This document shows, piece by piece, positions 17,333-51,235 of a stretch of DNA of 64,000 bases (position 1 is the first letter of the stretch; each line of letters begins with the position of its first letter). Under the pieces are notes generated by a model that saw only the letters and a program-made list of their open reading frames with translations, was not told the DNA's origin and did no database searches. Made by a program: the position numbers and the translations under genes. The DNA is from a virus, in the IMG/VR virus record IMGVR_UViG_3300035698_003705, positions 1 to 64,000 of that record; one strand, 5' to 3'.

Positions 17333-17390
17333 CGTTTTCGTTTTTTCGTTTATCAAAAAGCAAGATTAGGGTTACTAGTTGGAGGGGCCA

Positions 17391-19948: not shown

Positions 19949-19993
19949 GCCACTAGACAGGTTATGAATTGTGGTAAGTTGGAGGTCTTAATC

Positions 19994-23956: not shown

Positions 23957-25837
23957 ATGGGATCTACTATTAACAGCAGTTTAGCAGACATTATTATTGG
24001 AGTAGGGCAAGCTGCGAAAAAACAAAATGCTGGTGCTAAAGTTGTTGACATCATAGAGTTTACAGAAGCTGTTTGGGGGCTGAACCCGGATAATAACTTT
24101 TTCCTCTTTCCCGTACAAAGAGTGATTCTTAAAGCCCACTATGGGTTAGAACTAGACGCTAAAAAAACATTTGAGATCTCTGATTGGAAAAAAGAGAATT
24201 TCCGCACGTTTACAGAGAAAAGCTATCTTTCATATCTGTATGAAGAAGGCCGCAGTAACATTAAAGAGGTTGACCACCCCCGAAATGATATGGTCTTGAG
24301 TATTGGCAGACGATCTGGGAAAACCATGATGGCTGCGACTATCAGCTCCTATGAGACATACAAGCTACTTATGAAAGGTGATCCACAAGCTTACTATGGT
24401 CTTCCGGCAGCCAACAACATCCAGATTATTTCAGTTGCTACGGACAAGGATCAGGCTGGCTTGTTGTACCAAGAGGTTTCAGGCCACTTTTCTAACTGTG
24501 CGATTTTTGCACCCTATATGGCTAACAACACTCTCAGCTATGCCAGATTTCAAACACCCAAGGATATTGAGCGTTATGGCTCTTATGCTAAAAACCCAAG
24601 TGCGAAAGCCACCATTAAAATCACATTCAGATCTTGTATTGCTAAAGGCCTTCGTGGTGCTGGTAACCTTATTGTTATCCTCGACGAAATGGCTCACTTT
24701 ACAGATAAAGGACAGTCATCTGCTGAGACTGTACACCAGGCTGTAACACCTTCTACGGCTACTTTTTCTCCCAAGGATCGAAATGACACTAGGATCCCAA
24801 CAGGGCCAAGTGATGGCCGCGTTATTGCAATATCATCACCACTAGGCCGTCAGGGTATGTTCTATAAGCTGTTTCAGATAGGAATGCAGAAGTCTAAAGC
24901 ATCTGATACAATGCTGTGCATCCAAGCCCCCACTTGGGAAGTCAACCCCACTGTTCCTGCCAGCGAGTTTATGAAGTCCTACTTAAAGGATCCTACTCAA
25001 TTCTTTACAGAATTTGGTGCTGAGTTTACAGACCGAACCAAGGGCTTTATTGATAATGCTTCAGATCTTATGGAGTGTGTAGACCCACAGGCAAGACCCC
25101 TTGCACAGGCACCCCCCAGAAGAGCACACTTTGTAGGTGTTGATGTAGGCTTGAAAGGGGACGGGACAGCAGTTGCTATTGGGCATTTAGACCCCAATGA
25201 AAGAATAGTGCTTGATTACTTGGAGCAGCGAAAAGCGGGGGAAGGCCGCTATATAGACAAAGAGAGGCTTGAGCTTGATGACATAGCAGACTGGATTCTG
25301 GAGTTATCTAAAAAGTTTTCTATCGTAGAAGGGCTTTTTGATCACTGGGCTGGAATACCTTTTGAGCAGGCTTTGGCTAAAAGGGGCTTAAAGCAACTTA
25401 AAACAGAACAGATGACAAGAGTTCTGAAGTCAGACATCTGGCGAAATTTCAAGGACATGATGTATGATCATAGGCTTGTTCTTTACAACTGGCCTAAACC
25501 AGACAATGGAGACGAATACTGTGAGTATATTAAAGAGCTGTTGGAACTACAGGTAGAGTATTTTTCTAAATACCTTATAGATGTTGCAGCACCTAATATA
25601 GAAGGCAAGCATGATGATCGTCCAGATGCTCTTGTAAGAATGGTTTGGCTAGCAAGTCTAGCAGTTACCGGGGCTAAGCACATTGCTAGAAGTGGGCTTG
25701 GTAAACAAGGCCCACTTGCACCTGCAGCACAGCAACGTGTGTCAAGCTTTCAGAAACATCGTAACACAGGCCCAAGTCCAAGTAGATGTCCTACTAGGGC
25801 CCAAGCTAGTAGTAGATTCCAAGGCAGGAGAAGATGA
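23957..25837 (+). CDS. terL: Terminase large subunit (ATPase and nuclease)
   Basis: The 626-residue packaging motor has an N-terminal ATPase with a Walker A-like SIGRRSGKT and a Walker B LIVILDEMAHF (catalytic Glu after Asp). A RNase H-fold nuclease follows with GVDVGLKGDGTAVAIG (first Asp) and the closing HDDRPDALVRMVWLA segment. It pumps DNA into the prohead and cuts concatemers. The C-terminal 45 residues are basic and low-complexity. Its stop overlaps the next start (ATGA). This is the anchor gene for calling the block a tailed phage. Confidence 0.93.
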   Translation: MGSTINSSLADIIIGVGQAAKKQNAGAKVVDIIEFTEAVWGLNPDNNFFLFPVQRVILKAHYGLELDAKKTFEISDWKKENFRTFTEKSYLSYLYEEGRSNIKEVDHPRNDMVLSIGRRSGKTMMAATISSYETYKLLMKGDPQAYYGLPAANNIQIISVATDKDQAGLLYQEVSGHFSNCAIFAPYMANNTLSYARFQTPKDIERYGSYAKNPSAKATIKITFRSCIAKGLRGAGNLIVILDEMAHFTDKGQSSAETVHQAVTPSTATFSPKDRNDTRIPTGPSDGRVIAISSPLGRQGMFYKLFQIGMQKSKASDTMLCIQAPTWEVNPTVPASEFMKSYLKDPTQFFTEFGAEFTDRTKGFIDNASDLMECVDPQARPLAQAPPRRAHFVGVDVGLKGDGTAVAIGHLDPNERIVLDYLEQRKAGEGRYIDKERLELDDIADWILELSKKFSIVEGLFDHWAGIPFEQALAKRGLKQLKTEQMTRVLKSDIWRNFKDMMYDHRLVLYNWPKPDNGDEYCEYIKELLELQVEYFSKYLIDVAAPNIEGKHDDRPDALVRMVWLASLAVTGAKHIARSGLGKQGPLAPAAQQRVSSFQKHRNTGPSPSRCPTRAQASSRFQGRRR

Positions 25838-26085: not shown

Positions 26086-26381
26086 GAAATAGATCGGCAA
26101 ATAGAGAGTTGCTGCAATCCGTACAAGAGGCAGACAACCTGCTTCAGCGGATTAGACTTCAGATCCCAAATGCTTGCCGTCCACAGGTTCGTAAAATGCT
26201 CAGTCAGTTAAGGAATCTTCCGGGCTTGGTAGAGACAGAACTTAAAAGGGAAGCCCGTGACCAAGAAAGAGAAGTGCAGCGTAAGGTGGATCATCAGAGA
26301 AGGATAGATGCACGTCAAAAGCGGAGAGAGTCTACCTGGGTATCCCCAGTGGAGGAGTTGTTAGATGGCGAAGAAGAATAA
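26082..26381 (+). CDS. Small basic coiled-coil protein
   Basis: The 99-residue protein starts at GTG 26082 inside the previous stop, with GGGAGG upstream. It is highly charged and helical (RDQEREVQRKVDHQRR). It overlaps the portal start by 17 bases, so all three genes are co-translated. It may be a portal- or terminase-associated adaptor. No family is named. Confidence 0.65.
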   Translation: MRNRSANRELLQSVQEADNLLQRIRLQIPNACRPQVRKMLSQLRNLPGLVETELKREARDQEREVQRKVDHQRRIDARQKRRESTWVSPVEELLDGEEE

Positions 26382-28056
26382 ACCAGAAGATACTACCCCA
26401 GTCAAAGTAATCGCACCAACTAAAGGTGTTGTTGTGGGCAAGCCGGGGAAGGTTATCACATCAGCTATGCGATCTAAAACAGCCTTTGGTATGACCACGG
26501 GCGGTACAGCTCAGGGTGCTGGTGGTAACTTTTACAGTCCTGAATTGTCAACGGACTTTTTAGAACTACCACAAAGTAGGGAAGAGCAGTTAGAGTTTTA
26601 TCGCTTCTTTGCTAAGTATCATCCTTATGTAAGTCAAGCCCTCAGTTTGATGACTGAACTACCTTTGAGTAAAGTCAGGCTGCGTATGCCGGAAGCTAAA
26701 AACCGGGGTCTAGCTGAAAAAGCCATGCGTTATTGTGAAAACTGGTCCCGTAAAATGCAATTGCTTCAAAGGCTGATGGAAATCACCAGGGAGTATTTCC
26801 TAGCCGGAGAGGCTGCTATATTTGCAGAAGACACAAATCCCGAGATGCCGGACACGGTAAGGGCACAGCAGATACGAGAAATTAAAGAAGACGGGACGCT
26901 TATTGAGAGTTGGGAAGAATATCCGGATGCAGATGCCAAAGCAGTTGCTTGGTTAAAGAAGAACTATAAGGGGTGGACAGCAATTCGCACACTGCCCCCG
27001 GAACAGATTAAAATAGAGTCTTTCCCCTTTACGGATGAGAAGCTGGTAAACCTTGTTCCTGATTCTAAGTCCAAGGCTATTGTGGCAAAAGCCTTGTCAG
27101 GTGACCCCGAGGCTGAACGTATTGCTAACTCAATGCCACAAGAGATTTTAGATGCTATTCAAGATGGGCGGGATATCAATCTAAACACCGATCCAGATGC
27201 GGGTTCCTTCGTGTATATCTTGGCCCGTAACAAAACACAGTATGAACCTAATGGGCACTCTATCCTAGAGTCCTGCATGAGAGCCCTGGTATTTGAGGAC
27301 AAAATTCGTCAAGCTTTGAGTAGCATCGCTTCAAGGCATATGACCCCTTACCGGCTAGTTTATGCCGCAGATATGAATGACGAACAAACAGAGGCGCTCA
27401 GGGATCAGGTAGACCTTGCTATGCAAGATCCTGATTATTCTCTTGTTACAAACTTTGAAGTTACTTGGCAGGAGATGGGGGCAGACCAAAGGCTTCCTGA
27501 TTGGTCCTGGGCACTTGAAATGACACATCAGCACTTATATGCCGGTTTGGGTATGACAGAAGGTTTACTTACAGGTGAATCTAGTTATAGTGGTGACAAG
27601 ATTAGTCTGGAGGTTATCAACACACGCTTCATGCAGCTCCGTGAGTTGCTACAAGACCTTGTAGAGGATTACTTCTTTGCTCCTATGTGTCGGCGTATGG
27701 GTTTTGTAGAAGAGGATGAGGATGGCAACATGGTAGTTCTAACACCTAAGCTATCATTCACAAGGCTAGCTATGCGGGATCAGGCTGAGACTTTTGATGC
27801 TCTGTTCAATCTATATCAGAAGGGTTCAATCAGTATTGACATCATTTTGGACCTCTTTAACATAGACCCTGTTACCACAGAAGAAAAACTGCGTAGGGAT
27901 ATGTTTGGACCTAATGACGCTCTGTTTAATGAGACACTCCGTGGTGTGTATTCCGGTGCTTCTGATAAAATCATAGAAGGCACGGATGCGGTTGAGAAAA
28001 TAGCAGAAGGTATGGGACTTAAGTATACAGCACCTAAAGAAGATGATCGTTTCTAA
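26365..28056 (+). CDS. Portal protein
   Basis: The 563-residue protein directly follows the terminase cluster and has the composition of a portal: an N-terminal disordered tail, then LPQSREEQLEFYRFFAKYHPYVSQALSLM, typical of portal N-terminal helices. It continues with a wing domain and a helical stem and crown (residues about 350-540). Portals form the dodecameric channel through which DNA enters and leaves the head. There is no single diagnostic motif, so the call rests on length, order and pattern. Confidence 0.82.
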   Translation: MAKKNKPEDTTPVKVIAPTKGVVVGKPGKVITSAMRSKTAFGMTTGGTAQGAGGNFYSPELSTDFLELPQSREEQLEFYRFFAKYHPYVSQALSLMTELPLSKVRLRMPEAKNRGLAEKAMRYCENWSRKMQLLQRLMEITREYFLAGEAAIFAEDTNPEMPDTVRAQQIREIKEDGTLIESWEEYPDADAKAVAWLKKNYKGWTAIRTLPPEQIKIESFPFTDEKLVNLVPDSKSKAIVAKALSGDPEAERIANSMPQEILDAIQDGRDINLNTDPDAGSFVYILARNKTQYEPNGHSILESCMRALVFEDKIRQALSSIASRHMTPYRLVYAADMNDEQTEALRDQVDLAMQDPDYSLVTNFEVTWQEMGADQRLPDWSWALEMTHQHLYAGLGMTEGLLTGESSYSGDKISLEVINTRFMQLRELLQDLVEDYFFAPMCRRMGFVEEDEDGNMVVLTPKLSFTRLAMRDQAETFDALFNLYQKGSISIDIILDLFNIDPVTTEEKLRRDMFGPNDALFNETLRGVYSGASDKIIEGTDAVEKIAEGMGLKYTAPKEDDRF

Positions 28057-28092: not shown

Positions 28093-28686
28093 ATGAGTAT
28101 TTCTATTCGAATAGCACAGCAATGGTTGAAACTTAATGCAGAACAAGTGCATTCTGGTTTAGGCTTGTTTATTCCTTTGCCTAAAGACCTTGCTAAACAG
28201 TTCCCTTCTTTAGGATCTGAAGACACTTCTCCAAGTCATGTAACTTTTCTTTATGTTGGGGATATGGTCTCTGAAAAGGAACAGAAGTTCCTTGCTATAA
28301 CAAGAGAAGTGTTTCAACAATTCCAAGGGCCGGTGGAAGCGAGCTTGGACTATTTGGATTATTTCCCACAGCCATCTGAAAATAAAAAGGTTGCTTTGAT
28401 GCGTGTGCGTTTTGGCAAAGACTTGGCTGCTTTAAGGTGGCAGTTGAGAGAAGCACTGTTAGACGCGGGCATAGATGTAAAAGACAGCTTCCCTTTAGTC
28501 TACCAGCCACACGTCACACTTGCATATATGGACGGCTTAGACTCTAAATATACGGGGGGGGTTCCTGAAGGCAACTGGTTTATTACAGGGGCGGAAATAT
28601 GGGGTGATGGCAAAGAGCCCGTCCCTATTCCTTTTGGTTCAACAGCACAGAAGTTGGGTCAACGTTGGCTGCGGGAGAATGATTAG
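28093..28686 (+). CDS. 2H phosphoesterase with tag-like motifs at both ends
   Basis: The 197-residue protein has two HxT motifs, HVT at 49-51 (HVTFLY) and HVT at 140-142 (HVTLAY). These define 2H phosphoesterases, which open 2',3'-cyclic phosphates or 2',5' linkages in RNA or cyclic oligoadenylates. The N-terminus reads SIRIAQQWLKLNA and the C-terminus TAQKLGQRWLREND, both versions of the recurring R-[YW]-L tag. It is encoded among virion genes directly after the portal, unusual for an RNA enzyme. This suggests virion packaging and injection. Substrates could be cleaved tRNA ends or immune second messengers. Confidence 0.85.
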   Translation: MSISIRIAQQWLKLNAEQVHSGLGLFIPLPKDLAKQFPSLGSEDTSPSHVTFLYVGDMVSEKEQKFLAITREVFQQFQGPVEASLDYLDYFPQPSENKKVALMRVRFGKDLAALRWQLREALLDAGIDVKDSFPLVYQPHVTLAYMDGLDSKYTGGVPEGNWFITGAEIWGDGKEPVPIPFGSTAQKLGQRWLREND

Positions 28687-30533
28687 TGAGACACCAGACC
28701 TCAGTTGCTTTGATGAAGTTCCTTTCTGCTGTGGCCCGGAAGTTGGGCGTAGCTGAGCATATTTACGTGGTAGGTGGTGCTGTTCGTAACTTTGTGATGG
28801 ACCCTACGGGGTCAAAGTACCCCATAAAAGATATTGATGTTGTTATAGATTCAGTTGCATTAAAGGGGAGGGACTCTGCTTGGTTTGCGAAACAGCTTGT
28901 TAGTGCTATCCCAGCAGCTACAAGCTTAGTGACTAATAATTATGGTGTGGCTATAATTACAATAAATGGTGATTGGATACTCGGTGGTAGTTCTTTAAAG
29001 GGAGAGGTTGTTGAGATCGCTAATGCCAGAAAAGAGTCATACGGTGAAGCTGGTGGTAAAGGCTATAAACCCCACATGGTAGAGCCTGCTGCAATAGAAC
29101 AGGATGTTATGCGGAGAGAGTTTTCCTTTAATACTTTATTGTGGAGATTGTTGGATTTGGCACATGGGCCTGATAAAGCAGAAATTATTGATTTAACAGG
29201 GTGTGGGCTGCGAGACTTAAAGAATAAGGAGATGCTTTGTCCAAGAGATCCTGATATTGTATTCAAAGATGATCCCAGTCGTATGATTAGAGTCGTGAAG
29301 TTTTTATTGAAGTATGGTTTTAAGATACCCCCGGATGTTAAGGCTTCCATTAAGCGGAACAGCCCCAAGTTGAAAAACATCCCATCTAGCCATTTATCAA
29401 ATATGTTGATCAACACGTTTTTTGAACCAGGCGTCGGAAAACAGGCTTTACTTGAAATGAAGCGGTTGGGTTTGTTAGACACTATAACAGAGATAGCAAG
29501 GACTGACAAAGCATTCCAAGCAGCTTTGGCACACTGGGCGAATAAGAATGCCTCTATACAGTTTGTTTTTGATTTAATGGATTTGGGCATGCCTTCGGGG
29601 AAACGAATCTCATTCCTTGATACGGGGCAACAGAAAAGATTGCGTGAATTGACAGTCCAGATGTCAGCAGATGAGTCTGATGCTTATGTAAGGGTGCTTG
29701 AACAGCCCGGTAAAGTTTTAGACATGCCAGCTTTGATAGCAGAGTTTGGGCTGACAGGTGTTCAAATAAGGACTTTGTTACAGACAGCTAGAGAAGTACT
29801 ACTAGAGAAACCTAACTTAATAAAGAAAACCCACCAACTAGAGGATGCGGTAAGACTTATGATGAATTATTATGGTAAAAAAGCAAATCTCTCGGGCATT
29901 GTAGAAGTGCCCAAGAACACACACCCTGTAACTGTAGACCCACCTAAACCCCCCAACAGAAAAAAGTATCCTTTTGTAGGCTTTATTGACTTTCAAGGTT
30001 TAGAGATTGATGTTGAAAATAAGAAGGGGGATACTCGTAAAGGAGAGAACTCAGATGGTACAGAGTGGGCAACCTATATGCACAACCATTATGGAGAAAT
30101 ACGCGGGACGGAAGGAACAGATGGAGACAAGTTGGATGCGTATGTAGGCCCTAACCATGACAGCTCCCTTGTAGTGGTTGTTCATCAAAACGATCCAGAA
30201 ACAGGAAAGTTTGATGAGGATAAAGTAATGCTTGGTTTTGATTCTACTGAGGAAGCTATTGGAGCATATAAGAAGCAGTATGACCAACCAGGGTTTTTCA
30301 AAGAGGACGAGTATTTGGAGATGCCGATAGGACAGTTTTGGCGTTGGGTACATGAGGAACGGAACAAAGGCAACCCTACTGTAGTAGTAGAGCCACAACC
30401 CAAAGGACGGAAACAGCCCAAAGAGTTTGGACTTTATAGATTGTGGCAGGCAGACCCCGGCAAGAGGCTTGCACCGGCACAGAAGGTAGCTGCTACAAAG
30501 CTATCAAACCGTTATTTAAGCTCTAATTTTTGA
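28686..30533 (+). CDS. CCA-adding-type tRNA nucleotidyltransferase fused to a polyvalent-type pyrophosphatase domain
   Basis: The 615-residue protein starts at GTG 28686, overlapping the previous stop. Residues 1-210 are a class II poly(A)/CCA nucleotidyltransferase head: YVVGGAVRNF (28-36), metal Asps in DIDVVID (49-55), then MRREFSFNTLLW and DDPSRMIRVVKFLLKYGF. Helical neck domains follow to about 410. Residues about 429-558 match the inorganic-pyrophosphatase domain of phage polyvalent proteins (YGEIRGTEGTDGDKLDAYVGP, then DEDKVMLGFDS). The C-terminus KLSNRYLSSNF carries the recurring tag. The pyrophosphatase would pull nucleotide addition forward by removing pyrophosphate. Confidence 0.82.
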   Translation: MRHQTSVALMKFLSAVARKLGVAEHIYVVGGAVRNFVMDPTGSKYPIKDIDVVIDSVALKGRDSAWFAKQLVSAIPAATSLVTNNYGVAIITINGDWILGGSSLKGEVVEIANARKESYGEAGGKGYKPHMVEPAAIEQDVMRREFSFNTLLWRLLDLAHGPDKAEIIDLTGCGLRDLKNKEMLCPRDPDIVFKDDPSRMIRVVKFLLKYGFKIPPDVKASIKRNSPKLKNIPSSHLSNMLINTFFEPGVGKQALLEMKRLGLLDTITEIARTDKAFQAALAHWANKNASIQFVFDLMDLGMPSGKRISFLDTGQQKRLRELTVQMSADESDAYVRVLEQPGKVLDMPALIAEFGLTGVQIRTLLQTAREVLLEKPNLIKKTHQLEDAVRLMMNYYGKKANLSGIVEVPKNTHPVTVDPPKPPNRKKYPFVGFIDFQGLEIDVENKKGDTRKGENSDGTEWATYMHNHYGEIRGTEGTDGDKLDAYVGPNHDSSLVVVVHQNDPETGKFDEDKVMLGFDSTEEAIGAYKKQYDQPGFFKEDEYLEMPIGQFWRWVHEERNKGNPTVVVEPQPKGRKQPKEFGLYRLWQADPGKRLAPAQKVAATKLSNRYLSSNF

Positions 30534-30559
30534 TTAGGTAGGGGGCACACAATATAACA

Positions 30560-32827
30560 ATGACTCCAGTACAGAAGATCACTTCCCGATACCTAGCAGC
30601 TAAAGACAAAATACCTGGTGGTTTAGCTCAAGGTAAAGACCCCTCAGATTTTGACTCTAAGGCTATAGCTCGGGGTGTCAAAGTAGAGATGGAGCACACT
30701 ACGGATAAGGCCATTGCTACTGAGATTGCTATGGATCATCTGACAGAGGATACTGATTATTATGAGAAGCTTGAAAAGATGGAGAAGCAGGCTGCTGAGT
30801 TAGACTACCCTGAGTACAAACTACTTGGTGCTATGGCCAAGGGTACAAAAGTTGGTTGGATTGATGTGGGTTTACTAACTAGAACACTGGAATACCTGGA
30901 TTGGGATGTTGAAGAAACTACTGCTCCAAAACCTCTTGATGATGTAAAAGATGAAAAGACCTTAGCTAATTGGGTGCTTAAATTTAAAGGGGATATAGGG
31001 GGTTATTCAGGAATAAAAGAGCCAGCATTCTTTCGGTTCAAAGAAAAAGAAGGGGCCGAGCAAGCCTTAAAGGATTTATCCTCTGTGGCAACCCGAGTAC
31101 ACACACCGCCTACACATCCTGTTTTAGGTAGCTACTTTGTAAAAGAGATAGGCCCCACATACTTGGATGAAACACGTTCCTTTCCTTCATGGATGTTCAA
31201 GACACAGATTTGGTGGCGGGGTGACTTTGCACTGTCTGTTTCAACAGGTGGTGGCCCAAAGACTTTATTTACCTTTAATACAGATAGGAAAAACAAGAGT
31301 CTGATTTCCAGACCAGCTTTTTGGACTTGGGCTTATAAAAACGGTCTGAAAGAACAGGCACAGAATGTTTTGACTGGTATGGGGGCACACCCCACAAAGC
31401 CATCCAATAGGTCTTTAGAGAATACCGGGACATGTCCAGCTTGTTTTGCCAATGTGAAACTTTCAAGTAGGCGGGTTATGAGGCACGGTTGGTCTGTGCA
31501 AGGTGCAAGACAACGCTTCCAGTACGGCCTGACTTGGCATACAGGGCCTTGCTTTGGAACAGGTTACTTCTCCTTTGAAGAAAGTAACAAAGGCACCACA
31601 GACTATATAGAGTACTTAGAGAAGGTGCTTCTCAAAAAACAAAAAATAGAACCGTCCACTGAGCGAGATATGCGGGGCTTGAAACTAGAGATAGAAGCTC
31701 TTGTAAGAGAGATTGCTAATCTGAAAGTGCGTTTGAAAACTTGGGTTAAAACAGGTGCGAGGCATAACAAAGAGGACTACCACTCATACTTCACAACCTT
31801 GGAAGATGCAGTTAAAACGGCACAAACATTATCCAGAGGGAACAACTCTTCTTTATGGTTAGCATGGTGGGACTTTTATGCCGTGGGGGGGCTTTGGGCA
31901 GACCATGTTATAGAACACCTTGAGATACCGCCGGGGGCAGCTAAGTCCGTGGAAATGGCTATTCGTTTGTTTTCTAAGCAGTACGGTCGTGGGAAAAGTC
32001 CTAAAGATATAAGTGCTTGGTTTGTAGGCAACAAGAAAAGACTCCAAATACTAGATGAGGCAAGGTCATGGCCTGAGAGGTCCGCTGAGAATGATGTTTT
32101 TCAAGAGGGACCCTTTACGGTTCACAATACAGTACAAGCTGCAGGGGCAGAACTTGATCGGGTAAAAGGCATTGTCCATTCTGCTATTAAGGCTGCAAGA
32201 CATACAGGACTACAGGGTTTTGAAAAAGCTCTGTATGGCAACCTTTTTTTAGTAGGGCAGCTTAAACGCCGCACTTATGTTGCTTGGTATGAGCCAGCAA
32301 AGGATTCTTTTTATCTTCGTGCTGGTATGCGGGGCGTCTCAACAGAAGAGTCGGTTCTGAATTTACTTCACGAAGTGGCGCATAGGTACTGGGCTAAACA
32401 ACTGGGCCAAGCAACGAAAAGGGCTTGGCGGCTTCATCACAATAGGATGCTGCAGCATAGTGGTGGTTTTCAAAAAGCAGAAGTAGGAATGGCACTGCCT
32501 TTTTCAGTCAACAATAAAAAGGTACACATTCAGGAAGTGATCCCTTATGAGATCACACTGGTAGACGATGCTACAGGCAAGCTTGTGGGGAAAGTAACTC
32601 CAAGAAAACTATCAGATTGGTTGCGGGATGCAAATATGAAACGTCAGTTCCCAACACTTTATGCAGCAACAAGTGCGGAAGAACACTTTGCAGAAGCTGT
32701 GTCTTTCAGAGCGGTGGGAGAACTGAAAGGGGCTAACCTGACAGCTTATCAGCAAGTCTTAGAGGGAGCTGAAACATCTTCATACCGGCTGGCATCAAGA
32801 TATCTTAGAAGGGAGGCTACCAAGTGA
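30560..32827 (+). CDS. Polyvalent-type protein: DUF5661-like region, zinc finger and zincin metallopeptidase, tagged at both ends
   Basis: The 755-residue protein begins VQKITSRYLAAKD and ends SYRLASRYLRREATK, so both ends carry the RYL tag. Residues about 38-75 (GVKVEMEHTTDKAIATEIAM then DHLTEDTDYYEKL) resemble DUF5661, common in phage polyvalent proteins. A K-Q-A-A site follows at 77-80. CPAC at 292-295 with a later HTGPC may bind zinc. The C-terminal third has an HEVAH zincin motif at 604-608 with a downstream EEHFAEAV segment for a third ligand. It may cleave host proteins after injection. Start is ATG 30560, preceded by a short gap without a strong ribosome site. Confidence 0.75.
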   Translation: MTPVQKITSRYLAAKDKIPGGLAQGKDPSDFDSKAIARGVKVEMEHTTDKAIATEIAMDHLTEDTDYYEKLEKMEKQAAELDYPEYKLLGAMAKGTKVGWIDVGLLTRTLEYLDWDVEETTAPKPLDDVKDEKTLANWVLKFKGDIGGYSGIKEPAFFRFKEKEGAEQALKDLSSVATRVHTPPTHPVLGSYFVKEIGPTYLDETRSFPSWMFKTQIWWRGDFALSVSTGGGPKTLFTFNTDRKNKSLISRPAFWTWAYKNGLKEQAQNVLTGMGAHPTKPSNRSLENTGTCPACFANVKLSSRRVMRHGWSVQGARQRFQYGLTWHTGPCFGTGYFSFEESNKGTTDYIEYLEKVLLKKQKIEPSTERDMRGLKLEIEALVREIANLKVRLKTWVKTGARHNKEDYHSYFTTLEDAVKTAQTLSRGNNSSLWLAWWDFYAVGGLWADHVIEHLEIPPGAAKSVEMAIRLFSKQYGRGKSPKDISAWFVGNKKRLQILDEARSWPERSAENDVFQEGPFTVHNTVQAAGAELDRVKGIVHSAIKAARHTGLQGFEKALYGNLFLVGQLKRRTYVAWYEPAKDSFYLRAGMRGVSTEESVLNLLHEVAHRYWAKQLGQATKRAWRLHHNRMLQHSGGFQKAEVGMALPFSVNNKKVHIQEVIPYEITLVDDATGKLVGKVTPRKLSDWLRDANMKRQFPTLYAATSAEEHFAEAVSFRAVGELKGANLTAYQQVLEGAETSSYRLASRYLRREATK

Positions 32828-35800
32828 CTTTTGAATCGCAAAAACTAGCAGCCCGTTATCTGAATGCAGCAAAGTTAACTAATAGTAAACTTTGTGCTCG
32901 TTATCAAGACAAGAAAGTTGTTAAGACCCAAGACGGGGATGATATGACGGTCTACACATATAGTGACCGGCAAATAGCTAAGCGGGATAAAGATAAGGCA
33001 GAACGCATTGATAAGCTCCGTGGCAGTATTAAGGACTTGCAAGGACAAGTGCGTAAAGATCTTAAATCTAAGGATGAAAAGATCCGGCTGACAGCTTTAG
33101 CAGTAGGGCTCCTTGACGCATCCTTTGAAAGAGTGGGTAACTCAACTTCAGCTAAAGACGGACATTTTGGCGTCACTGGATGGCAAGTAAAACACGTCCA
33201 GTTCAAGGGCGGAAAAGCTGTTATCAAATATGTAGGGAAGTCTGGAGTAGATCAAGAAAAAACTATTGATACTGCAATCTCAGTTCAAGCCCTCAAGGAT
33301 GCTGTCAAAGGCAAAAAGCCCGAGGATGAAGTTTGTGGCAGTGTTAATGCTACTGATGTGAATGCCTATCTTAAGCAGTTCAAGATAACTGCAAAGGATC
33401 TCAGAGGCTACCATGCAAACACTGAAATGCAGAAGCAACTGAAAGCAGTACGGGCTAAAGGTAAAACACTTCTAGCGGACAAAAAAGAACAAGAGAAGCA
33501 ATTAAAAGCGGAGTTTAAGCAGGCACTAGAAGCAACCGCTGAAGCAGTAGGGCACGAACCAGCAACACTTAAATCACAGTATCTAGTCCCAGGGCTAGAG
33601 GAAGAGTACTTGAAGGGCGGGAAGGTTACGGAAAGCCTAAAGAAGAAAGCTACTAGGCCCATACAGATAGACAAGATCTTGATTGATGCTGAAGTCAGGG
33701 GCCTTATTTCAGATTTGAGACGGGAGCTGGGAAGAAGGCATTCTCAAAAAGCACCCTTGGGAAAGCTGGCCCCCAACTATTTTATTCTGCAAAAAGACAT
33801 GGCTTACTTTGAGGGTGCTAAAAATGTTTTGGGGCGAGAGATGGCTGCACCTTTGTTAAGGGTGACTAGTGTTGTTAGCAACCTACCTGATATGATTCTT
33901 TCAGGCGGTGCTGGAAAAACATCTAAGGGGCAGCCAGCTATAGTTATAAATCTAAACGGACGATACACACCCTATCAGTTAGCAGAAGGCATTGTGTTTA
34001 AGAGTTCTGAGTTTAGGAAACTGTTTCTACATGAAATGACACACATACTAGATATATATAAAAAAGGTCCGTCTACGAAGAATGTGCCTACTGATTTAGA
34101 TAGGGTAAAGTATGTGAATAACCCAAAAGAAGTCAGGGCTTATATGCAAGAGATTGTAGATAGGGCTTTGGAAGTGGCACCTAAGTTTAAGGGTCACTTC
34201 CAAAGTAAAGATTTTTTTAGACTTCTTATGAGAGTGACTCCCACTTGGGAAGAGGTTAGTTCTTTGCTAACACATAACAATAAAAAGCTGATCTTAAAGG
34301 CAGTATATAGATCCCTATCAGATGCTGACATGTTGCCGGAGAATGACACCATTAGGAGTCTGACTGCCCGGTGGTTAGAAGCCAGGACAGAACAATGGGG
34401 TTTGCCCGAAGCAGATGATTGGAAGGATGGCTTCTTCTCCCGGAACCCTAAATTACGTTTTTTAAATGGTGTGCGTGTGGGCTTTGTAGAGGGTACCAAA
34501 ACAGGTCCCGAAGCCCAGTGGGTGTCTAAGGGTGTGTTGCTGTATCCGAAGTTCTGGGACCTGCAGAAGCGTGTCCAGGACTTTGTATTTGCCCATGAAC
34601 TAGGACACGGGGTATTAGAGAAATGGGGCTACACGGGTTTGATAAAGGCAGCAGACCAACTGGATCTTGATATTTGGGATACCGCTAAACTGCCTTTTGC
34701 AGCACCTAATTTTGATGAAGCCTTCGCAGACTGTTTTGCTAGTTACTATGTAGATAAAGATGTGCAGCGACGTTACCCCGAATGGTCATCTTTGGTTGCA
34801 CTCGCAAAGAAGACCATTAAACTAGGGACTAAGACACATACTCAAAAAGAAGACGCTGCCGTTGAGGGCTTGTTACATACTAGTCCACAGAAAAAACCAC
34901 CAAGGCAAGACTTACACAGGAACCGTCTTGAAACTGAAGATACAGACTTGGAACCCCAGGGTGCAGAAAACGATGAGGACCTATCATTGAATTATAAACG
35001 AGTAGCCGCAGGATGGTTTAGACAGTTTCAAGCAAAGCATACAAAAACGGTAGAGCATAAGCCTGGAGAAGTGTGGCCTTCTGCAAAGGGTGGCCAGTGG
35101 GTAGCTAAGAATCCAGAGGGCGTAGCACATTCCTTTAAGGATAAACAGCGGGCTAAAGACTACGCTGAAGGCAAAGTAGACCCCGCAGGCACAGAAACCA
35201 AGCCTGTGGAAGATGCTCCTGTAGAGAAAGTAACGCCCGATGAGACAGTAGAACAGGAACAGCCAGAGTCACAGCCAGAGTCACAACCTTTAGAAGGTTG
35301 GAGATCCTATGAAAAGGAACCTAAACTATCGGTAGACAATAAAGACCGGTGGCTAAAGGAACACACAGTGACCACACCTGGTGGCGGCTTGGTAATAGGA
35401 TTGCCTCAGATAGATACAGCACAAGCAAAGAAAATTGGTGTGCCTGTTCTAAAAAATGATGTGCTCCCAAAAGTACGGGCAGCTATTGAGGGTGCTTTGG
35501 AGTCAGGTAAAGAAGTATTTTTTCTGGGTGATAGCTCAGTGCTTCCAGAAGACCTCAAAGATAAGGTCACTCAGGAAGGCTTAACAGATTCAAGTACTTC
35601 CTTAGATAACATGGACTCTCCTATCTGGGAAGACCTCTATAAAACATCCAAGGCAGATAAGGACCTTACACATGCTTCTATAGCTGCGTATCTTTTGGGG
35701 GCAGGGGAACCTGTTGAAAAGCTCCCCATGTTAGATGATAAGGCTAAGAAGCTTCTCAAGAAACGCTTTAGGGTGGATGTAGATAATATAACAGATGAGG

Positions 35801-38253
35801 ACCGTCAAAACCTGCAAGCTATCACTTCCCCTGTAGATTCAGGAGCACCTTCTAACCCTGCTTCAAGGGTTGTAGATGCTATGAATAATCTGCTTGATAA
35901 AAACACGGTTCAAAGAATCCAGAAGTTAGAGGCCGCTGGGAATGTGGTTGTTGCTACACCTGGTGCACCGCACGCCTGGAGTATGAAACCTGTTTTAGAG
36001 AAAGGGTCTGCTCCGGCTAAAAAACCAGAGACTCCTACTAAACCCATTGAAGAAGAAGCACCTGTAGAAACACCTGTAGAAACACCTGTAGAAGCACCTG
36101 TAGAAACACCTGTGGCTCCTGTTAAGAAGGCTCCCAAAAAAGACACGCTGGCAAATATCAAACAGCAGTTGGATTCTTCAGGTCTAGACAAGGCTACTAT
36201 CAAAACCTTAACAGCACGTCTAGGTGACTTGTCTGACAGTGCCTCACAGCAGGTTGTTGATAGCTATAGGAGCAACCTAGCTTCTTTTAGGGGTAGGACC
36301 TTAAATGAAAGCCTTATGGAAGATGTTGCGGATGCTTCTAACAACCTACAGAAGTCAGGGGTTGCTGCAAGTGTTTTAGGAGAAGCATTGGCTGCTCATA
36401 CTTTTGCATACAACACACTAGCTAATCCAGCCATTTTAATTAAAGGGACAAAACCTGAAGTACTTACAGCAAAAGCAGCAGAACACTTTGGGGCCCTCAG
36501 TCCTCTGATTCGTCAAATGGCAATAGGAAGGATGCTGTCCCAAATAAGTGATGCTGGTTCTGAAGAGTACTCTCAACTAGCAAGAGTTCGGGACGGTTTG
36601 TTTATGGCTTCTGTTATTGCAGGAGATGATAAAGCCTATCGCAAAGTTGACGGACAGTCCTTACTACCAGAACCATCAAAGCAACTTAAGTCTCTTGTAA
36701 AGATGCAGCTAGATAGGGGAGAAGATATAGGTGACTTAGCAAAGGCAGACTTTTATGCACCTGAAGGGCGTAATGCTCTGCGAGAGCATATGAAGACGAT
36801 GCCTATAGATGATGTGGCTGAAATTTATAGTGCTGGTGATAAGGATGTTGAAAGCATTATAAAGGATGCTTTCAATAAAGCTACAGCTCCATGGCAAAAA
36901 ACTATGCTGCGGGGGTTTCTGCAAGATTCTGTGATAAACGAAATGACTGTGGTGCACAACCTGATAGCTTCAACTTTTAAGTCAGGTACAGCATCTCCAG
37001 AAGAAGGTGCCTCAAAGACACATAAAAAAGCACTTCCTACTGATCCAGAGGAAATCACTAATCTAATGCGACACTTGATGGACCAGTCTATAAAGTATAA
37101 AGGTGTGGCTGTTTCAGAACTACTGTCTTGTATTACAAAACCAAATAGTACAGAAGAAGGGTGTAGAGAACAGCATAGACAAGGTATATTAAAGCAACTA
37201 GATCCTATCTGGGAAATGCTTCAAAAAGAGTACGACTTAGATCCAGGTAATCCTTCTGTAGCACAGTTGCGTAAAACTTTGTTAGATAGAAACCCTGATG
37301 AGTTAGATAAACTTTTCAGGACTACAGAACAGCATAAAAAGGCGTTTATTTCAATCTTTAGTTTATACGGAGAACATAGTAGCGAGGGGCGTTGTGTCTC
37401 GCGCGGCCTGTTTTCTGATTATTTAATGAGGAGGATTCTCATGGGATCTATGTCGAAAAAGGGTGCTAAGCAAGTTACATCCGCCCTGGATAATGTAGCT
37501 AATTTGTTTCAACAGGATTGGGAAGCCATGGGCGTACCTCAGAAGGTAGCACATGATTTTGCATATCGTTGCGATATCCTTAGTGAGCATTTGGAAAAAC
37601 GCGCGGGCAAAGTTGCCCTGACGGAAGATGACGTTGTTAAAGAAAAGGGTTTTAATCCTGACACTATTGGCGAAGAAGTCAGTGGGCCATTGGAGCAGGA
37701 TTCAGACGAAAGTTTCATGAAGGGTGAGTTCACCCAGCAGGAAAACCGAGAACTTCGGAATCGCTATGAAGATGGTGACCTTGGTGTTGATACAAACCCT
37801 GAACCGGAAGCACCCTCAGCTGGTAAGCAGGCTTCTTTTGCAGACTATGGTATTAAGGTAGCTTCTCAGAATCTGAGCCTTGCTATTAACAAGATTAATC
37901 GTATGGCTTCTGAAGGCATCTCTCCCGTATTGGCTTCTAGTCTGCTCGGCCTTAGCCAAGCTGCTCTGGGCGTTAAGATGGGCCTCTCTACAGGTAAAAC
38001 CTCAGCAGAGAAGGTTGCAGATGTTCTTGAGGCACTATCTGTGCTGAACACTGTTCCTAGTAACAAACTGGCTGAAGCCGTTATTCTAGCTACCAAGGTA
38101 GCAGACGATGACGAAGATGATGATAAGGAAGACAAGGATGATGATAAAGACGAGAAGAAGATTCCCGACTTTATCCAGGAAAAAATAGACGCCAAGGAAG
38201 AGAAGGAAGAGAAAAAAGAAAAGAACGCCCACACTTTTAAGCTTTACGCATAA
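32824..38253 (+). CDS. 1809-residue polyprotein-like virion protein: topoisomerase IB, two zincins, helical C-terminal region
   Basis: The start is GTG 32824. Residues 1-20 carry QKLAARYLNAAK, the recurring tag. Residues 90-265 are a type IB topoisomerase with the full catalytic set Arg103, Lys139, Arg194, His244 and Tyr253, spaced as in vaccinia topoisomerase. A first zincin has HEMTH at 403-407. An internal tag-like SLTARWLEA (512-520) precedes a second zincin with HELGH at 591-595 and DEAFADCFASYY. A further RVAAGWFRQ (726-734) begins the next section. Proline-rich VETP repeats lie near 1079-1098. The remainder is helical, with a K-Q-A-S site near 1665 and an acidic/lysine tail. It probably acts as an injected multi-enzyme protein or precursor. 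Confidence 0.82.
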   Translation: MTFESQKLAARYLNAAKLTNSKLCARYQDKKVVKTQDGDDMTVYTYSDRQIAKRDKDKAERIDKLRGSIKDLQGQVRKDLKSKDEKIRLTALAVGLLDASFERVGNSTSAKDGHFGVTGWQVKHVQFKGGKAVIKYVGKSGVDQEKTIDTAISVQALKDAVKGKKPEDEVCGSVNATDVNAYLKQFKITAKDLRGYHANTEMQKQLKAVRAKGKTLLADKKEQEKQLKAEFKQALEATAEAVGHEPATLKSQYLVPGLEEEYLKGGKVTESLKKKATRPIQIDKILIDAEVRGLISDLRRELGRRHSQKAPLGKLAPNYFILQKDMAYFEGAKNVLGREMAAPLLRVTSVVSNLPDMILSGGAGKTSKGQPAIVINLNGRYTPYQLAEGIVFKSSEFRKLFLHEMTHILDIYKKGPSTKNVPTDLDRVKYVNNPKEVRAYMQEIVDRALEVAPKFKGHFQSKDFFRLLMRVTPTWEEVSSLLTHNNKKLILKAVYRSLSDADMLPENDTIRSLTARWLEARTEQWGLPEADDWKDGFFSRNPKLRFLNGVRVGFVEGTKTGPEAQWVSKGVLLYPKFWDLQKRVQDFVFAHELGHGVLEKWGYTGLIKAADQLDLDIWDTAKLPFAAPNFDEAFADCFASYYVDKDVQRRYPEWSSLVALAKKTIKLGTKTHTQKEDAAVEGLLHTSPQKKPPRQDLHRNRLETEDTDLEPQGAENDEDLSLNYKRVAAGWFRQFQAKHTKTVEHKPGEVWPSAKGGQWVAKNPEGVAHSFKDKQRAKDYAEGKVDPAGTETKPVEDAPVEKVTPDETVEQEQPESQPESQPLEGWRSYEKEPKLSVDNKDRWLKEHTVTTPGGGLVIGLPQIDTAQAKKIGVPVLKNDVLPKVRAAIEGALESGKEVFFLGDSSVLPEDLKDKVTQEGLTDSSTSLDNMDSPIWEDLYKTSKADKDLTHASIAAYLLGAGEPVEKLPMLDDKAKKLLKKRFRVDVDNITDEDRQNLQAITSPVDSGAPSNPASRVVDAMNNLLDKNTVQRIQKLEAAGNVVVATPGAPHAWSMKPVLEKGSAPAKKPETPTKPIEEEAPVETPVETPVEAPVETPVAPVKKAPKKDTLANIKQQLDSSGLDKATIKTLTARLGDLSDSASQQVVDSYRSNLASFRGRTLNESLMEDVADASNNLQKSGVAASVLGEALAAHTFAYNTLANPAILIKGTKPEVLTAKAAEHFGALSPLIRQMAIGRMLSQISDAGSEEYSQLARVRDGLFMASVIAGDDKAYRKVDGQSLLPEPSKQLKSLVKMQLDRGEDIGDLAKADFYAPEGRNALREHMKTMPIDDVAEIYSAGDKDVESIIKDAFNKATAPWQKTMLRGFLQDSVINEMTVVHNLIASTFKSGTASPEEGASKTHKKALPTDPEEITNLMRHLMDQSIKYKGVAVSELLSCITKPNSTEEGCREQHRQGILKQLDPIWEMLQKEYDLDPGNPSVAQLRKTLLDRNPDELDKLFRTTEQHKKAFISIFSLYGEHSSEGRCVSRGLFSDYLMRRILMGSMSKKGAKQVTSALDNVANLFQQDWEAMGVPQKVAHDFAYRCDILSEHLEKRAGKVALTEDDVVKEKGFNPDTIGEEVSGPLEQDSDESFMKGEFTQQENRELRNRYEDGDLGVDTNPEPEAPSAGKQASFADYGIKVASQNLSLAINKINRMASEGISPVLASSLLGLSQAALGVKMGLSTGKTSAEKVADVLEALSVLNTVPSNKLAEAVILATKVADDDEDDDKEDKDDDKDEKKIPDFIQEKIDAKEEKEEKKEKNAHTFKLYA
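36060..36117 (+). repeat. 12-bp coding tandem repeat (Val-Glu-Thr/Ala-Pro)
   Basis: Repeats of ACCTGTAGAAAC and variants encode a (V-E-[TA]-P)n linker inside the 1809-residue protein. It is an interdomain hinge, not a DNA element. Confidence 0.75.
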
Positions 38254-38262
38254 GGCGGTCTA

Positions 38263-38868
38263 ATGGCCAAAATTAAACAAGCATACGTGGATTTTCAACA
38301 GAGAGCTACGGAGTTCTCTGTTGGAGACTCCGTATATCCATTCATGTCTGGAAACAACAACCTGATCGGCACTGTTGTAGCTGTTTGGCCAGCTATAGGT
38401 ATGGTAGATGTTGAGTGGCCCCACGGGTCCCAACGTATGCCTGTAGAGGAACTTGCTAGATATCGGAAGATTGACTTTCAGCCTCCTCAAGTAGGACATG
38501 ATAATGTTCCAGGTGGGGCAGGGACGGTTTCTGTTTCTGGTGGCCCCTACAAGCCAACAAAAGAAGCAAAGACCAAGCTAGTTACTGCTTACTTGAAAAA
38601 AGCTCTTTACTGGGCTGCCCCTGATCGTAAATATCAGGCTTCGCAGGATGAGCTTAGTCAAGGACAGTTTTTGTGCCCCCGTTGTAAGGAGGCCGAACTT
38701 AGGACAGCTTCTTATAAAAGAGAAGGTGGTACAAGTGAACGCTTACTTGCGTGTCCTGCTTGTCTGTTTCTGATTCGTCAGTGTGATGTCAAAGGACACC
38801 CTGAATATGAGGACACTCAAGTCAAAATGCCTTTCACTAGGATTCGTTTGGTTGGGGAAGATAATTAA
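38263..38868 (+). CDS. SH3-barrel plus zinc-ribbon protein with internal tag-like helix
   Basis: The 201-residue protein begins with a small barrel: FSVGDSVYPF, then IGTVVAVWPAIGMVDVEWPHG and a PVEELARY end. A helix containing KTKLVTAYLKKALYWAA at about 105 resembles the recurring tag. A zinc ribbon follows (CPRC then LLACPACLF, about 143-175). Its stop overlaps the prohead protease start. A role in head assembly or a DNA-gate contact is plausible, and nothing more specific is supported. Confidence 0.68.
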   Translation: MAKIKQAYVDFQQRATEFSVGDSVYPFMSGNNNLIGTVVAVWPAIGMVDVEWPHGSQRMPVEELARYRKIDFQPPQVGHDNVPGGAGTVSVSGGPYKPTKEAKTKLVTAYLKKALYWAAPDRKYQASQDELSQGQFLCPRCKEAELRTASYKREGGTSERLLACPACLFLIRQCDVKGHPEYEDTQVKMPFTRIRLVGEDN

Positions 38869-40340
38869 TGGCAATGCTTAAAACAGCCCGTGCACGTGTT
38901 GTACACCCGCACATTAAACCGTCGCAGTGGAATAGAGTTAAGACCGCTTCTAAGTCAACTTCTAAGACTGCTTCAGCGGTGAATGCTGATTTGACGGCTA
39001 AGGCAACAGAACTGTTGGGTGAAGCTTTTGATCCTGATAAATATTTGTTGTCCCACTGCACGATAGTGGCCTCTGTGGACACATATACTCCAGAAGGTAC
39101 TAAGACAGGTACGCTTGTTGAAAGTGGTAAAAAGATTTACCGTAAATTTTCAGATTTTAGAATCACACCTGAAACAGCATCTTTTATAAATCATAACTTT
39201 GATAGCTGGTCACGTGATGTTATTCTAAAGTCATATAAAACCTTCATTGGTGGTCAGAATTATACTGAACACGTTCAGTTGGAGAATCTTTCAAAGGGTC
39301 GTATTATAGATGCTGTTGTTCGTGACGTAGGCTCATCACTATATGTTGACATTCTTGTTGCAACTAACAGAGAGCATACTGAACTTGTTAAGGCTATTGA
39401 ATCAGGTAAGATGGGTACATTATCAATGGGCTGTAGTATCCTGGGATCTAGTTGTACAAAATGTGGTAATTGGGCTCCTGATGAAACAGAAATGTGTGAA
39501 CATGTAAAATATGAGAAGGGCAACACCTTTTTTGATAGTAATGGTGTACAGCATGTTGTAGCTGAGACTTGTGGCCATAGTTCCATTGAAGGTGGCGGCG
39601 TTACATTTATAGAAGCTTCATGGGTAGAGACACCTGCTTTTACAGGGGCCGTGCTCAGGAACATACTGGAACCTACGGAACAGATGGCTGTTCAGGCACA
39701 GAAGATTCTTAGCACACCACCTACTCAATGGGCAGAAGACTCCCAGTTAAAAGCAGCTTCTACAAAGTTAGCTGAATTAGCAGAAGATGAGTGGATGGGT
39801 CAGGAACCTGACGCTACTGAGGAAGCACCCATAGAAGAAGAGGCTGGTCCTGATACAGAAGAAGCACCAGTAGAAGATACTTCCCTGTTGCAAGACGTGG
39901 AAGATGATGCTGCCCTAATAGTAAAGAATAGAATACGAGACAAACTGAAAAAAGAGCTGGGTTTTGAAACTCCCGGCCATGGTGTGTCAGAACTACAGAA
40001 CGATAATCTTAATCAGGTTGCTGCTCTGAGAGTATATAACGCCAGCTTAGATACTTTGACTAGAACAGCATCTTCGGACGCTGCTTTAATAAATGGAATT
40101 GCACACCTCAATAATAGTTTGGGCGTGAATGTTCCTATGGCTCTTTATAGAGCAGCTTTGAAAATAGGTGACCCTGCAGACCACGGTACAGTATTAAAGT
40201 ACAAGAAGGCTTGTAAGCAAGCTTTACTGCGGGAACCTAATAATGTGGAAGCAAAGATGTTGTTGCATCTTGCGTATATACTCCATCAGAGAGGGTCTTT
40301 GATGGACAAGCCTGGCAGTTTTGCCAAAAAAGGAGATTAG
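38868..40340 (+). CDS. Prohead maturation protease
   Basis: The 490-residue protein has a protease core: NYTEHVQLENLSKGRIIDAV (candidate His), then YVDILVATNREH and SGKMGTLSMGCSI with a candidate nucleophile Ser, as in capsid maturation serine proteases. A Cys/His insert (CTKCGNWA...MCEHV...ETCGH) follows. After residue 300 the chain becomes acidic and scaffold-like. It sits between the large internal proteins and the scaffold and capsid genes, the normal position. It would digest scaffold and trim internal proteins during head expansion. Possible self-cleavage sites K-T-A-S lie near residue 35. Confidence 0.78.
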   Translation: MAMLKTARARVVHPHIKPSQWNRVKTASKSTSKTASAVNADLTAKATELLGEAFDPDKYLLSHCTIVASVDTYTPEGTKTGTLVESGKKIYRKFSDFRITPETASFINHNFDSWSRDVILKSYKTFIGGQNYTEHVQLENLSKGRIIDAVVRDVGSSLYVDILVATNREHTELVKAIESGKMGTLSMGCSILGSSCTKCGNWAPDETEMCEHVKYEKGNTFFDSNGVQHVVAETCGHSSIEGGGVTFIEASWVETPAFTGAVLRNILEPTEQMAVQAQKILSTPPTQWAEDSQLKAASTKLAELAEDEWMGQEPDATEEAPIEEEAGPDTEEAPVEDTSLLQDVEDDAALIVKNRIRDKLKKELGFETPGHGVSELQNDNLNQVAALRVYNASLDTLTRTASSDAALINGIAHLNNSLGVNVPMALYRAALKIGDPADHGTVLKYKKACKQALLREPNNVEAKMLLHLAYILHQRGSLMDKPGSFAKKGD

Positions 40341-42592: not shown

Positions 42593-43471
42593 ATGTCTGA
42601 AGTAACTAATGTTGCCCGACAGCAAGTAATTGGCGAGTATATCAGGACCCCACAGGGTCGTGCTAAACTTGCGGCCTCTATGACCCAACCCTTGCGTATG
42701 CGCCGTGACTATGCCGCCGTTGGCCGTAAAACCTTCTTGGTTGAACAGCTTCCTGACGGTGCCACCCCCGTTTATGACAAAGACCCAGAAATGGTAGCTT
42801 ATGTTGTAGGCGAGGAAGGCGAAAGCATCACCGCCATTGCCAAGTCACGTAGGGTGATTTTCCCCCTATTTGAACTTGCTTCCCTGCCTGAGATCCCCCT
42901 CAGCCAGATTAAAGAAAGACGTTTTGATCTAATCGAACGTTCACTTGATCTTGCCAAGGCTCAGATTCAGGCCGCAGAAGACGAGAGAGTGTTTGCAGTT
43001 CTTGACAGCATCGCTGTTGCAGGCTTTGATTCACTTCCTGGTCAGCTTAACCCGGACATCCCGGTTGTAGCTCCTGTAAGTGCTGCTGTTCTTTCAGATG
43101 CCTTTGGGCTGATTGAACGACATGACCTGCGTGTGGCTCGTGTTTACATGAATGCTCGTGACTATGCGGATCTCCGTAAGTTTGGGCGTGACGTGCTAGA
43201 CATTGAGACTCAGGCCTCTTTGCTGAAGACTGGTCTTATGGCTACCCTTTGGGGAGCACAGATCGTAACATCACGTCTGGTACCCGTGGGAACAATTTAT
43301 TGTTGCTGCGAACCAGAAATGTTTGGACGAATCCCTGTTAGGACCGAACTTACTGTTTTGTCTGCTGATGATCCCAAGGCTCGTACCATTGGTTTCTCAG
43401 TATTCGAAATGCTGGGTTTGGGCGCATTCAATCCTAGAGGATTGACACGTCTAACCATCACACGTGGCTAG
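42593..43471 (+). CDS. Major capsid protein (HK97-like)
   Basis: The 292-residue protein has the pattern of an HK97-fold capsid: an N-terminal helical arm (residues 1-35), an E-loop region with KTFLVEQLPDG, and a spine helix (ERSLDLAKAQIQAAEDERVFAVLDSI). The A-domain includes VYMNARDYADLRKFGRDV and ILGAQIVTSRLVPVGTIY-like strands near 215-245. The C-terminal strand is RGLTRLTITRG. Strong terminators bracket it and the decoration gene. There is no lysine/asparagine crosslink evidence. It may lose a short N-arm on maturation. Confidence 0.82.
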   Translation: MSEVTNVARQQVIGEYIRTPQGRAKLAASMTQPLRMRRDYAAVGRKTFLVEQLPDGATPVYDKDPEMVAYVVGEEGESITAIAKSRRVIFPLFELASLPEIPLSQIKERRFDLIERSLDLAKAQIQAAEDERVFAVLDSIAVAGFDSLPGQLNPDIPVVAPVSAAVLSDAFGLIERHDLRVARVYMNARDYADLRKFGRDVLDIETQASLLKTGLMATLWGAQIVTSRLVPVGTIYCCCEPEMFGRIPVRTELTVLSADDPKARTIGFSVFEMLGLGAFNPRGLTRLTITRG

Positions 43472-46027: not shown

Positions 46028-46819
46028 ATGCTGATAGTTGGAAGCTGCATAGAAAAGCTAAAAGAACTTGAAGAGAATAGTGTGGATGCACTTATTACAG
46101 ATCCGCCGTATCTTACAACAAACATTCACTTTGATAAGGCAGGTTTAGCTATGGGGTGGGTGCAGGAGGCTTTGCGGGTAGTCAAACCCAATGGTTATCT
46201 AGCTTGCTTTGCTCCTATCCCTATGTCAGCTGAAATCGGAAAGACCTGGTCTATGCGTTTTTCTGGTTGTTGGATTAAAGAAAAAGGTGGGATGCGAACA
46301 CACAATGCAAAGAAGCCTATGCAGCAATCTGAGGTGTATACTGTTTTTGCACACCCGGATCATAAAATTTGTGATTTAACTTGGAACAAGGTTTTTCGTG
46401 AAGGCAACCCTTATGAAAGAGTGCGTAGGAAGACAGGATATAAAAGAGGTGGCACAGATCAGTTAGATAGGGCCTGTCCTAATGGCTGGACTGAGGAAGG
46501 TTTTATCCGTCTAAATACAGGAACAAGGCAGGTTACGGATTGTCTTTATGCAGCCTCAAAAAGCGCTATGAAAAGAAGTGAGAGGACTTCACACCCTACT
46601 CAAAAGCCCCTTGCTATTATGCGGGTTTTAATTGAATGGCTGACTAACCCAGGTGATGTTGTATTGGATCCTTTTATGGGGTCTGGAACAACAGGCGTAG
46701 CTTGTCAGGAATTGAATAGAGAGTTTGTTGGTATAGAGTTAGATCCCGGATACTTTGAGATGGCTTCAAAAAGACTTGAAGCTACAGAATCAATTTTTAG
46801 TTTGCTGCCAGAAAGCTAA
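46028..46819 (+). CDS. DNA adenine-type methyltransferase (DPPY)
   Basis: The 263-residue protein has motif IV DPPYLTT near residue 25 and, at the C-terminal end, the target segment TSHPTQKPLAIMRVLIEWLTN followed by motif I DPFMGSGTTGVACQ, a circularly permuted beta-class order. Beta-class enzymes methylate N6 of adenine or N4 of cytosine. No restriction partner is adjacent, so it probably protects phage DNA from host restriction. Its 3' end overlaps a convergent minus-strand gene by 23 bases. Confidence 0.88.
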   Translation: MLIVGSCIEKLKELEENSVDALITDPPYLTTNIHFDKAGLAMGWVQEALRVVKPNGYLACFAPIPMSAEIGKTWSMRFSGCWIKEKGGMRTHNAKKPMQQSEVYTVFAHPDHKICDLTWNKVFREGNPYERVRRKTGYKRGGTDQLDRACPNGWTEEGFIRLNTGTRQVTDCLYAASKSAMKRSERTSHPTQKPLAIMRVLIEWLTNPGDVVLDPFMGSGTTGVACQELNREFVGIELDPGYFEMASKRLEATESIFSLLPES

Positions 46820-50872: not shown

Positions 50873-51235
50873 ATGAAAAAAGCTTCCGATAATCAGGTTG
50901 TATGGGCCTTACTCACTGAGGGGGTCACTCAAGCCCGATTAGATGCACACAGGGTACAGCTATTAATAGATAGAGCAGTCAAACTTGTAGAAGCATCATC
51001 AGACAAAGAACATCTCTACCAAGTTGCAGGTGATATAATCCAGGGGCTTCCTGAGAGAATGGGTGCTTTGAAAGGTTCTTTGGATAGAACTAACTGGGCA
51101 CTTGCGAAGATGGGTGCTGAAATCTTTGAGGATATGATGCCACTAGCAGACAAGGCTTTGGTGCAAGAAACCGTAAAGCCTATTCTAGCCAAAAGACTTG
51201 CTGCTAGATATATGAAAGAACGGGGACTATCTTGA
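50873..51235 (+). CDS. Small helical protein with C-terminal RYM tag
   Basis: The 120-residue all-helical protein has a C-terminus KRLAARYMKERGLS, a clear copy of the recurring tag. The N-terminus MKKASDNQ has a K-K-A-S site. It overlaps the next gene by four bases. Its helical body could be an internal head or scaffold component, and no family is recognised. Confidence 0.7.
   Translation: MKKASDNQVVWALLTEGVTQARLDAHRVQLLIDRAVKLVEASSDKEHLYQVAGDIIQGLPERMGALKGSLDRTNWALAKMGAEIFEDMMPLADKALVQETVKPILAKRLAARYMKERGLS

Follow-up and report, generated by a model that had tools for sequence, protein, structure and literature searches.

Layout of the locus

The window analysed here, positions 1 to 64,000 of the 65,365-base IMG/VR record IMGVR_UViG_3300035698_003705, contains a giant open reading frame (ORF) that begins with GTG, has no internal stop and is present on the + strand exactly as an initial annotation of the DNA had given it (Table 1). 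A type IB topoisomerase (TopIB) domain is followed in the encoded protein by two domains with HExxH motifs and, over residues ~690–1809, by additional conserved modules that were absent from that annotation. The virion-region location claimed for the gene is likewise borne out by the gene order, which runs from the terminase large subunit (TerL) and the portal through the TopIB ORF to the head maturation protease and the major capsid protein. Several of the modules fused to TopIB in relatives are separate genes directly upstream in the window, and the 2H, CCA-type nucleotidyltransferase and InPase domains between portal and TopIB (28093–30533) form a possible tRNA-end repair set. Immediately downstream of the major capsid gene lie DNA methyltransferase-like genes (43678–45840 and 46028–46819); in the related giant phage LR745208 (locus L002) a long ORF, 29019–32708, has the corresponding place. 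An intein-splicing domain (PF14890, 1.1e-13) is encoded at 60230–61678.

Table 1. Positions of the features discussed, counted from the first base of the window
Feature	Position	Strand	Basis or remarks
Terminase large subunit (TerL)	23957..25837	+	phrog_2, 1.3e-24
Portal protein	26365..28056	+	phrog_16240, 6.7e-19
2H phosphoesterase-like protein	28093..28686	+	PF13563, 1.4e-7; fused to TopIB in L003
CCA-type nucleotidyltransferase + InPase	28686..30533	+	PF01743 7.6e-11, PF18823 2.9e-40; TopIB fusion partners in L003 (nucleotidyltransferase) and L007 (InPase)
DUF5661 + HEVAH zincin-like protein	30560..32827	+	PF18905 1.5e-10; homologue fused to TopIB in L007
Ribosome-binding-site-like AAGGGAGG	32809..32816	+	sequence; 7 nt upstream of the GTG of the giant ORF
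Giant ORF: TopIB, zincin 1, zincin 2, further modules	32824..38253	+	1809 aa
Motif KLAARYL, N-terminal, residues 7–13	32842..32862	+	motif enrichment
Type IB topoisomerase domain, residues 22–270	32887..33633	+	Pfam, model + Foldseek, 18-row alignment
Catalytic R103 codon	33130..33132	+	invariant in 18 aligned rows
Catalytic K139 codon	33238..33240	+	invariant in 18 aligned rows
Catalytic R194 codon	33403..33405	+	invariant in 18 aligned rows
Catalytic H244 codon	33553..33555	+	invariant in 18 aligned rows
Y253 codon, presumed nucleophile	33580..33582	+	invariant in 18 aligned rows
Probable zincin 1, residues ~275–505	33646..34338	+	H403, E404, H407, third ligand E436; kept in homologues
Motif LTARWL, residues 513–518, between the zincins	34360..34377	+	motif enrichment
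Probable zincin 2, residues 520–670	34381..34833	+	H591, E592, H595, third ligand E632; kept in homologue L026
Conserved small module, residues ~690–830, LNYKRVAxxW + WxAKGGQWxAKNPxG	34891..35313	+	tblastn: L007, L003, L013, L006, L022, L008
Conserved module without assigned function, residues ~1110–1410	36151..37053	+	tblastn: L003, L007, L006
C-terminal module, residues 1520–1809	37381..38250	+	own downstream gene in most relatives (tblastn)
Head maturation protease	38868..40340	+	phrog_18299, 1.1e-10
Major head protein	42593..43471	+	phrog_2522, 1.2e-47

The topoisomerase domain and the two HExxH domains

The five residues initially read as the catalytic set of a TopIB (R103, K139, R194, H244 and Y253) are found at those positions with spacings of 36, 55, 50 and 9. 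Measured against the vaccinia enzyme, in which the catalytic residues are R130, K167, R223, H265 and Y274, the claimed vaccinia-like spacing holds overall but not ahead of the histidine, where the phage domain has 8 extra residues. The pattern is not due to chance, because Pfam family PF01028 matches residues 52–251 (E=2.7e-28; 99.3 bits, family cut-off 23.7), because phmmer searches of the PDB retrieve archaeal TopIB 6z01 as the best match (6.7e-13) along with human, Leishmania, Deinococcus and pox TopIBs, because all 22 Foldseek matches with E<1e-3 between the predicted structure and the PDB are TopIBs, and because the five residues are invariant in 18 of 18 aligned rows. The AlphaFold2 model, built from 17 sequences (pLDDT 82), has the TopIB fold. 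Residues ~22–270 are a genuine type IB topoisomerase domain, which is compact and probably catalytically active, and its chemistry, as far as conserved residues indicate, would be that of the family.

Most of the N-terminal domain of the pox and bacterial enzymes appears to be missing from the model, in which no more than a short beta hairpin comes before the catalytic helices. The apparent loss of this clamp domain, together with the catalytic fold common to TopIBs and tyrosine recombinases, would suit a recombinase-like or inactive DNA-binding domain that is no topoisomerase in practice, but such a domain is very improbable indeed: Foldseek scores TopIBs at ~1e-11 and the best tyrosine recombinase at 3e-3, and a dead domain would lose the residues that are invariant here. 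The same ranking rules out a tyrosine integrase.

Both HExxH motifs of the initial annotation (residues 403–407 and 591–595) lie in the same chain as the TopIB, where composition predicts 0.04. The two domains are probably zincin-like metallopeptidases, because a homologue of each keeps the HExxH and the glutamate that would be the third zinc ligand. Zincin 1 has stand-alone homologues of 264–265 aa in other giant phages, all of which keep the HExxH and the glutamate of (N/D)P(K/G)EVRA; one is encoded in LR745208, far away from the TopIB gene of that phage. Equivalents of H403, E404, H407 and E436 are retained in the homologues L028, L030 and L013, and in the L013 ORF the distant zincin 1-like domain is at the far end. 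For zincin 2 there is a single homologue (L026, 53% identical), which retains the HExxH and NFDEAFAD. Comparison of both domains with curated families gave sub-threshold matches only, zincin 2 had no match in the PDB, a single-sequence scan with zincin 1 found nothing, and the AlphaFold2 model of the zincin region has a pLDDT of 44, too low to be of use.

The idea that the TopIB and the two zincins form a functional unit is not supported by comparison with relatives, in which the TopIB is found alone or with other partners and the zincin 1 homologues stand alone; among the loci compared, the joint fusion of both zincins to TopIB is found only in the window phage. Two zincins as the natural partners of TopIB can also be discarded, since none of the relatives' ORFs carries two HExxH motifs. 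The L007 ORF has an HExxH of the type seen in the gene just upstream of the giant ORF in the window (HEVAH).

Relatives in uncultured giant phages and a recurrent short motif

A single-sequence TopIB scan of viral contigs returned nothing, nor did genome contigs scanned with two sequences; close relatives were found by alignment queries of viral and genome contigs. They belong to uncultured giant phages, namely LR745208.1 (485 kb) and 23 IMG/VR loci (16 distinct) on contigs of up to 618 kb. Besides the window, 16 distinct giant-phage loci and two metagenome-assembled genome (MAG) contigs carry the TopIB. The two MAG contigs (L045 and L046) have the head-gene order of the phage relatives and are probably phage sequence inside bins; both come from bins assigned to bacterial MAGs, one of them with the label Actinomycetota, and as misbinned phage or prophage they could hold a hint of the host. 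In LR745208, TnpB/OrfB-like ORFs read by eye flank the terminase gene (L002 12081–13382, +, and 15550–16833, -), and a GIY-YIG-like homing endonuclease ORF, also read by eye, adjoins the TopIB gene (L002 22259–23119).

TopIB ORFs range from 290 to 3125 aa across the loci, with the TopIB alone in 290–400 aa and multi-module proteins of 1062–3125 aa. The partners are 2H and CCA-nucleotidyltransferase in L003, InPase, DUF5661, a zincin-like domain and RNA ligase in L007, AAT, DUF5661 and a weak acetyltransferase match in L013, and HAD_SAK in LR745208. The TopIB is the constant part, and the partner modules swap between giant phages. Cultured jumbo phages have TopIBs that are only remotely similar, and a phylogenetic tree unites the 19 members in one clade (100/100 support) that a long branch separates from the TopIBs of four such phages; stand-alone and fused forms are interleaved within it, and many inner forks are weakly supported. 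Modules for tRNA-end repair (2H, CCA-nucleotidyltransferase, RNA ligase) are the commonest neighbours or fusion partners of the TopIB, and pox TopIBs are also able to cleave RNA in vitro, both of which would fit a TopIB-fold domain that works alongside these enzymes in nucleic-acid repair or counter-defence. We regard such a role as very improbable, as nothing links the domain to RNA and polyvalent proteins by their definition mix unrelated activities (PMC5512222).

The TopIB gene has head genes around it in 15 of 19 loci and is most often found between the portal and the head maturation protease (between terminase and portal in L018 and L023); in L004, L009, L015 and L016 the nearest 10 kb include no recognised head gene. 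These last four loci favour a late, non-virion topoisomerase that would act in the infected cell and relieve torsion in replication, late transcription or packaging, so that its place in the head block would mean late expression and the zincins would be maturation proteases. Large phage genomes need topology control, and cultured jumbo phages encode TopIBs as free proteins, in some cases close to replication or nucleotide genes (PMC7824862). This is the main rival to the reading of the protein as packaged cargo and deserves considerable weight, though we think it somewhat unlikely: most loci have the TopIB between portal and protease, and it is repeatedly fused in very long proteins to 2H, CCA, InPase and RNA ligase modules that are unrelated to replication.

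A short motif resembling KRVAxRYL (approximate pattern [KR][VIL][AS]x[RK][YFWH][LMVI]) sits at protein ends and module borders. Its counts, which are partly circular because the pattern was shaped on the same sequences, are 5 in the window against 0.20 expected from shuffled sequences, 25 against 1.13 in the relatives (13 against 0.25 for terminal positions) and 10 against 1.16 in the whole of LR745208. Four cultured-phage regions, a small control, gave 0 against 0.20. In the window it is seen at the N- or C-terminus of non-structural proteins encoded at 17379–17711, 19964–20575, 28093–28686, 28686–30533, 30560–32827 and 50873–51235. About half of the ten LR745208 motif proteins scanned are without a clear domain, and a looser form of the motif is carried in that genome by, among others, one ART-PolyVal and one 2H protein, a C39-like peptidase and the homologue of zincin 1. 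A marker of head-cluster proteins only is ruled out by the genome-wide occurrence in LR745208. A possible function of the motif is to signal loading or processing, which would account for its position at protein ends and module borders.

Proposed role and comparison with known systems

We propose, with confidence that is evenly balanced, that the giant ORF encodes a modular polyvalent-type cargo of a giant phage, made with the head, packaged and ejected, whose TopIB relaxes the entering DNA. The protein would be made late, together with the head proteins, and would probably be taken up into the prohead and leave it with the DNA on ejection. The TopIB would nick one strand via Tyr253, let supercoils turn out and reseal the strand, and would so relax the incoming genome at entry and first transcription, like the packaged TopIB of vaccinia; the zincins would most likely cleave the polyprotein into separate units or, once entry has taken place, act against host proteins. 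The vaccinia TopIB is packaged in the virion and serves chiefly in early transcription (PMC12188299 and its refs 72 and 73), and by this analogy use at entry or first transcription is plausible.

Packaging is suggested by the position in the head block, by the polyvalent-type architecture and by the motif. Disparate enzymatic domains (the TopIB and two probable zincins) share one chain beside virion genes, and the polyvalent-type reading is favoured because the ORFs are long and fused, because the partners change and because InPase, DUF5661 and zincin are known polyvalent modules (PMC5512222). Motif-bearing stand-alone proteins of LR745208 that include ART-PolyVal and 2H domains also argue for cargo. 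The reading is weakened by the four loci with no recognised head gene nearby, by the genome-wide spread of the motif in LR745208, by the zincins, which match no family, and by the cultured phage PaBG, whose remote TopIB is not among the structural-proteome proteins named in the available text. Wider still, and in our view unlikely, is the tentative picture of giant phages that carry TopIB in the head as poxviruses do, with a freely combined cargo of TopIB, tRNA-end repair, InPase, zincins and ART that the KRVAxRYL-like motif at protein ends and module borders directs to the prohead or marks for cutting.

TopIB and polyvalent proteins are themselves already known; what is new is a TopIB group that serves as one module in head-linked polyvalent-type proteins of giant phages and is distant from the TopIBs of cultured phages. 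It appears to add a DNA-topology enzyme to the recognised modules of polyvalent proteins, and the presence of TopIB in head-linked cargo-type proteins makes the need for topology help at phage DNA entry testable. If the motif is a loading signal, a shared peptide could predict what uncultured giant phages inject.

Poxvirus TopIBs (vaccinia and variola; PDB 2h7g, 3igc, 1a41) have the same fold, the five catalytic residues and the same separation of 9 between histidine and tyrosine, but identity is ~21% and the phage protein appears to lack the greater part of the N-terminal domain; virions of poxviruses contain the enzyme (PMC12188299), whereas the phage TopIB is one module in a long protein and only a putative virion component. 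Archaeal and eukaryotic TopIBs (6z01, human Top1) give the best PDB sequence matches, although the phage domain is much shorter and without their long insertion between histidine and tyrosine. The TopIBs of cultured jumbo phages (PaBG, Lu11, Motura, RHEph12, PhiXhv) are also phage-encoded and of the same fold (PMC7824862), but they are single proteins of 561–668 aa, ~27% identical and set apart by a very long branch. The polyvalent proteins of Iyer et al. 2017 (PMC5512222) are similarly long, multi-domain and encoded close to virion genes, and zincin and InPase are among their disparate modules; TopIB is not among the modules described in the available part of that work, and the window zincins match no family listed there. 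Finally, the KRVAxRYL-like motif, whose targeting role is putative, differs from the capsid-targeting sequences of T4 internal proteins and P1 DarB (PMC3012670, PMC9024508) in lying at both termini, between modules and genome-wide, and resembles them in being one short sequence common to diverse proteins that are putative cargo.
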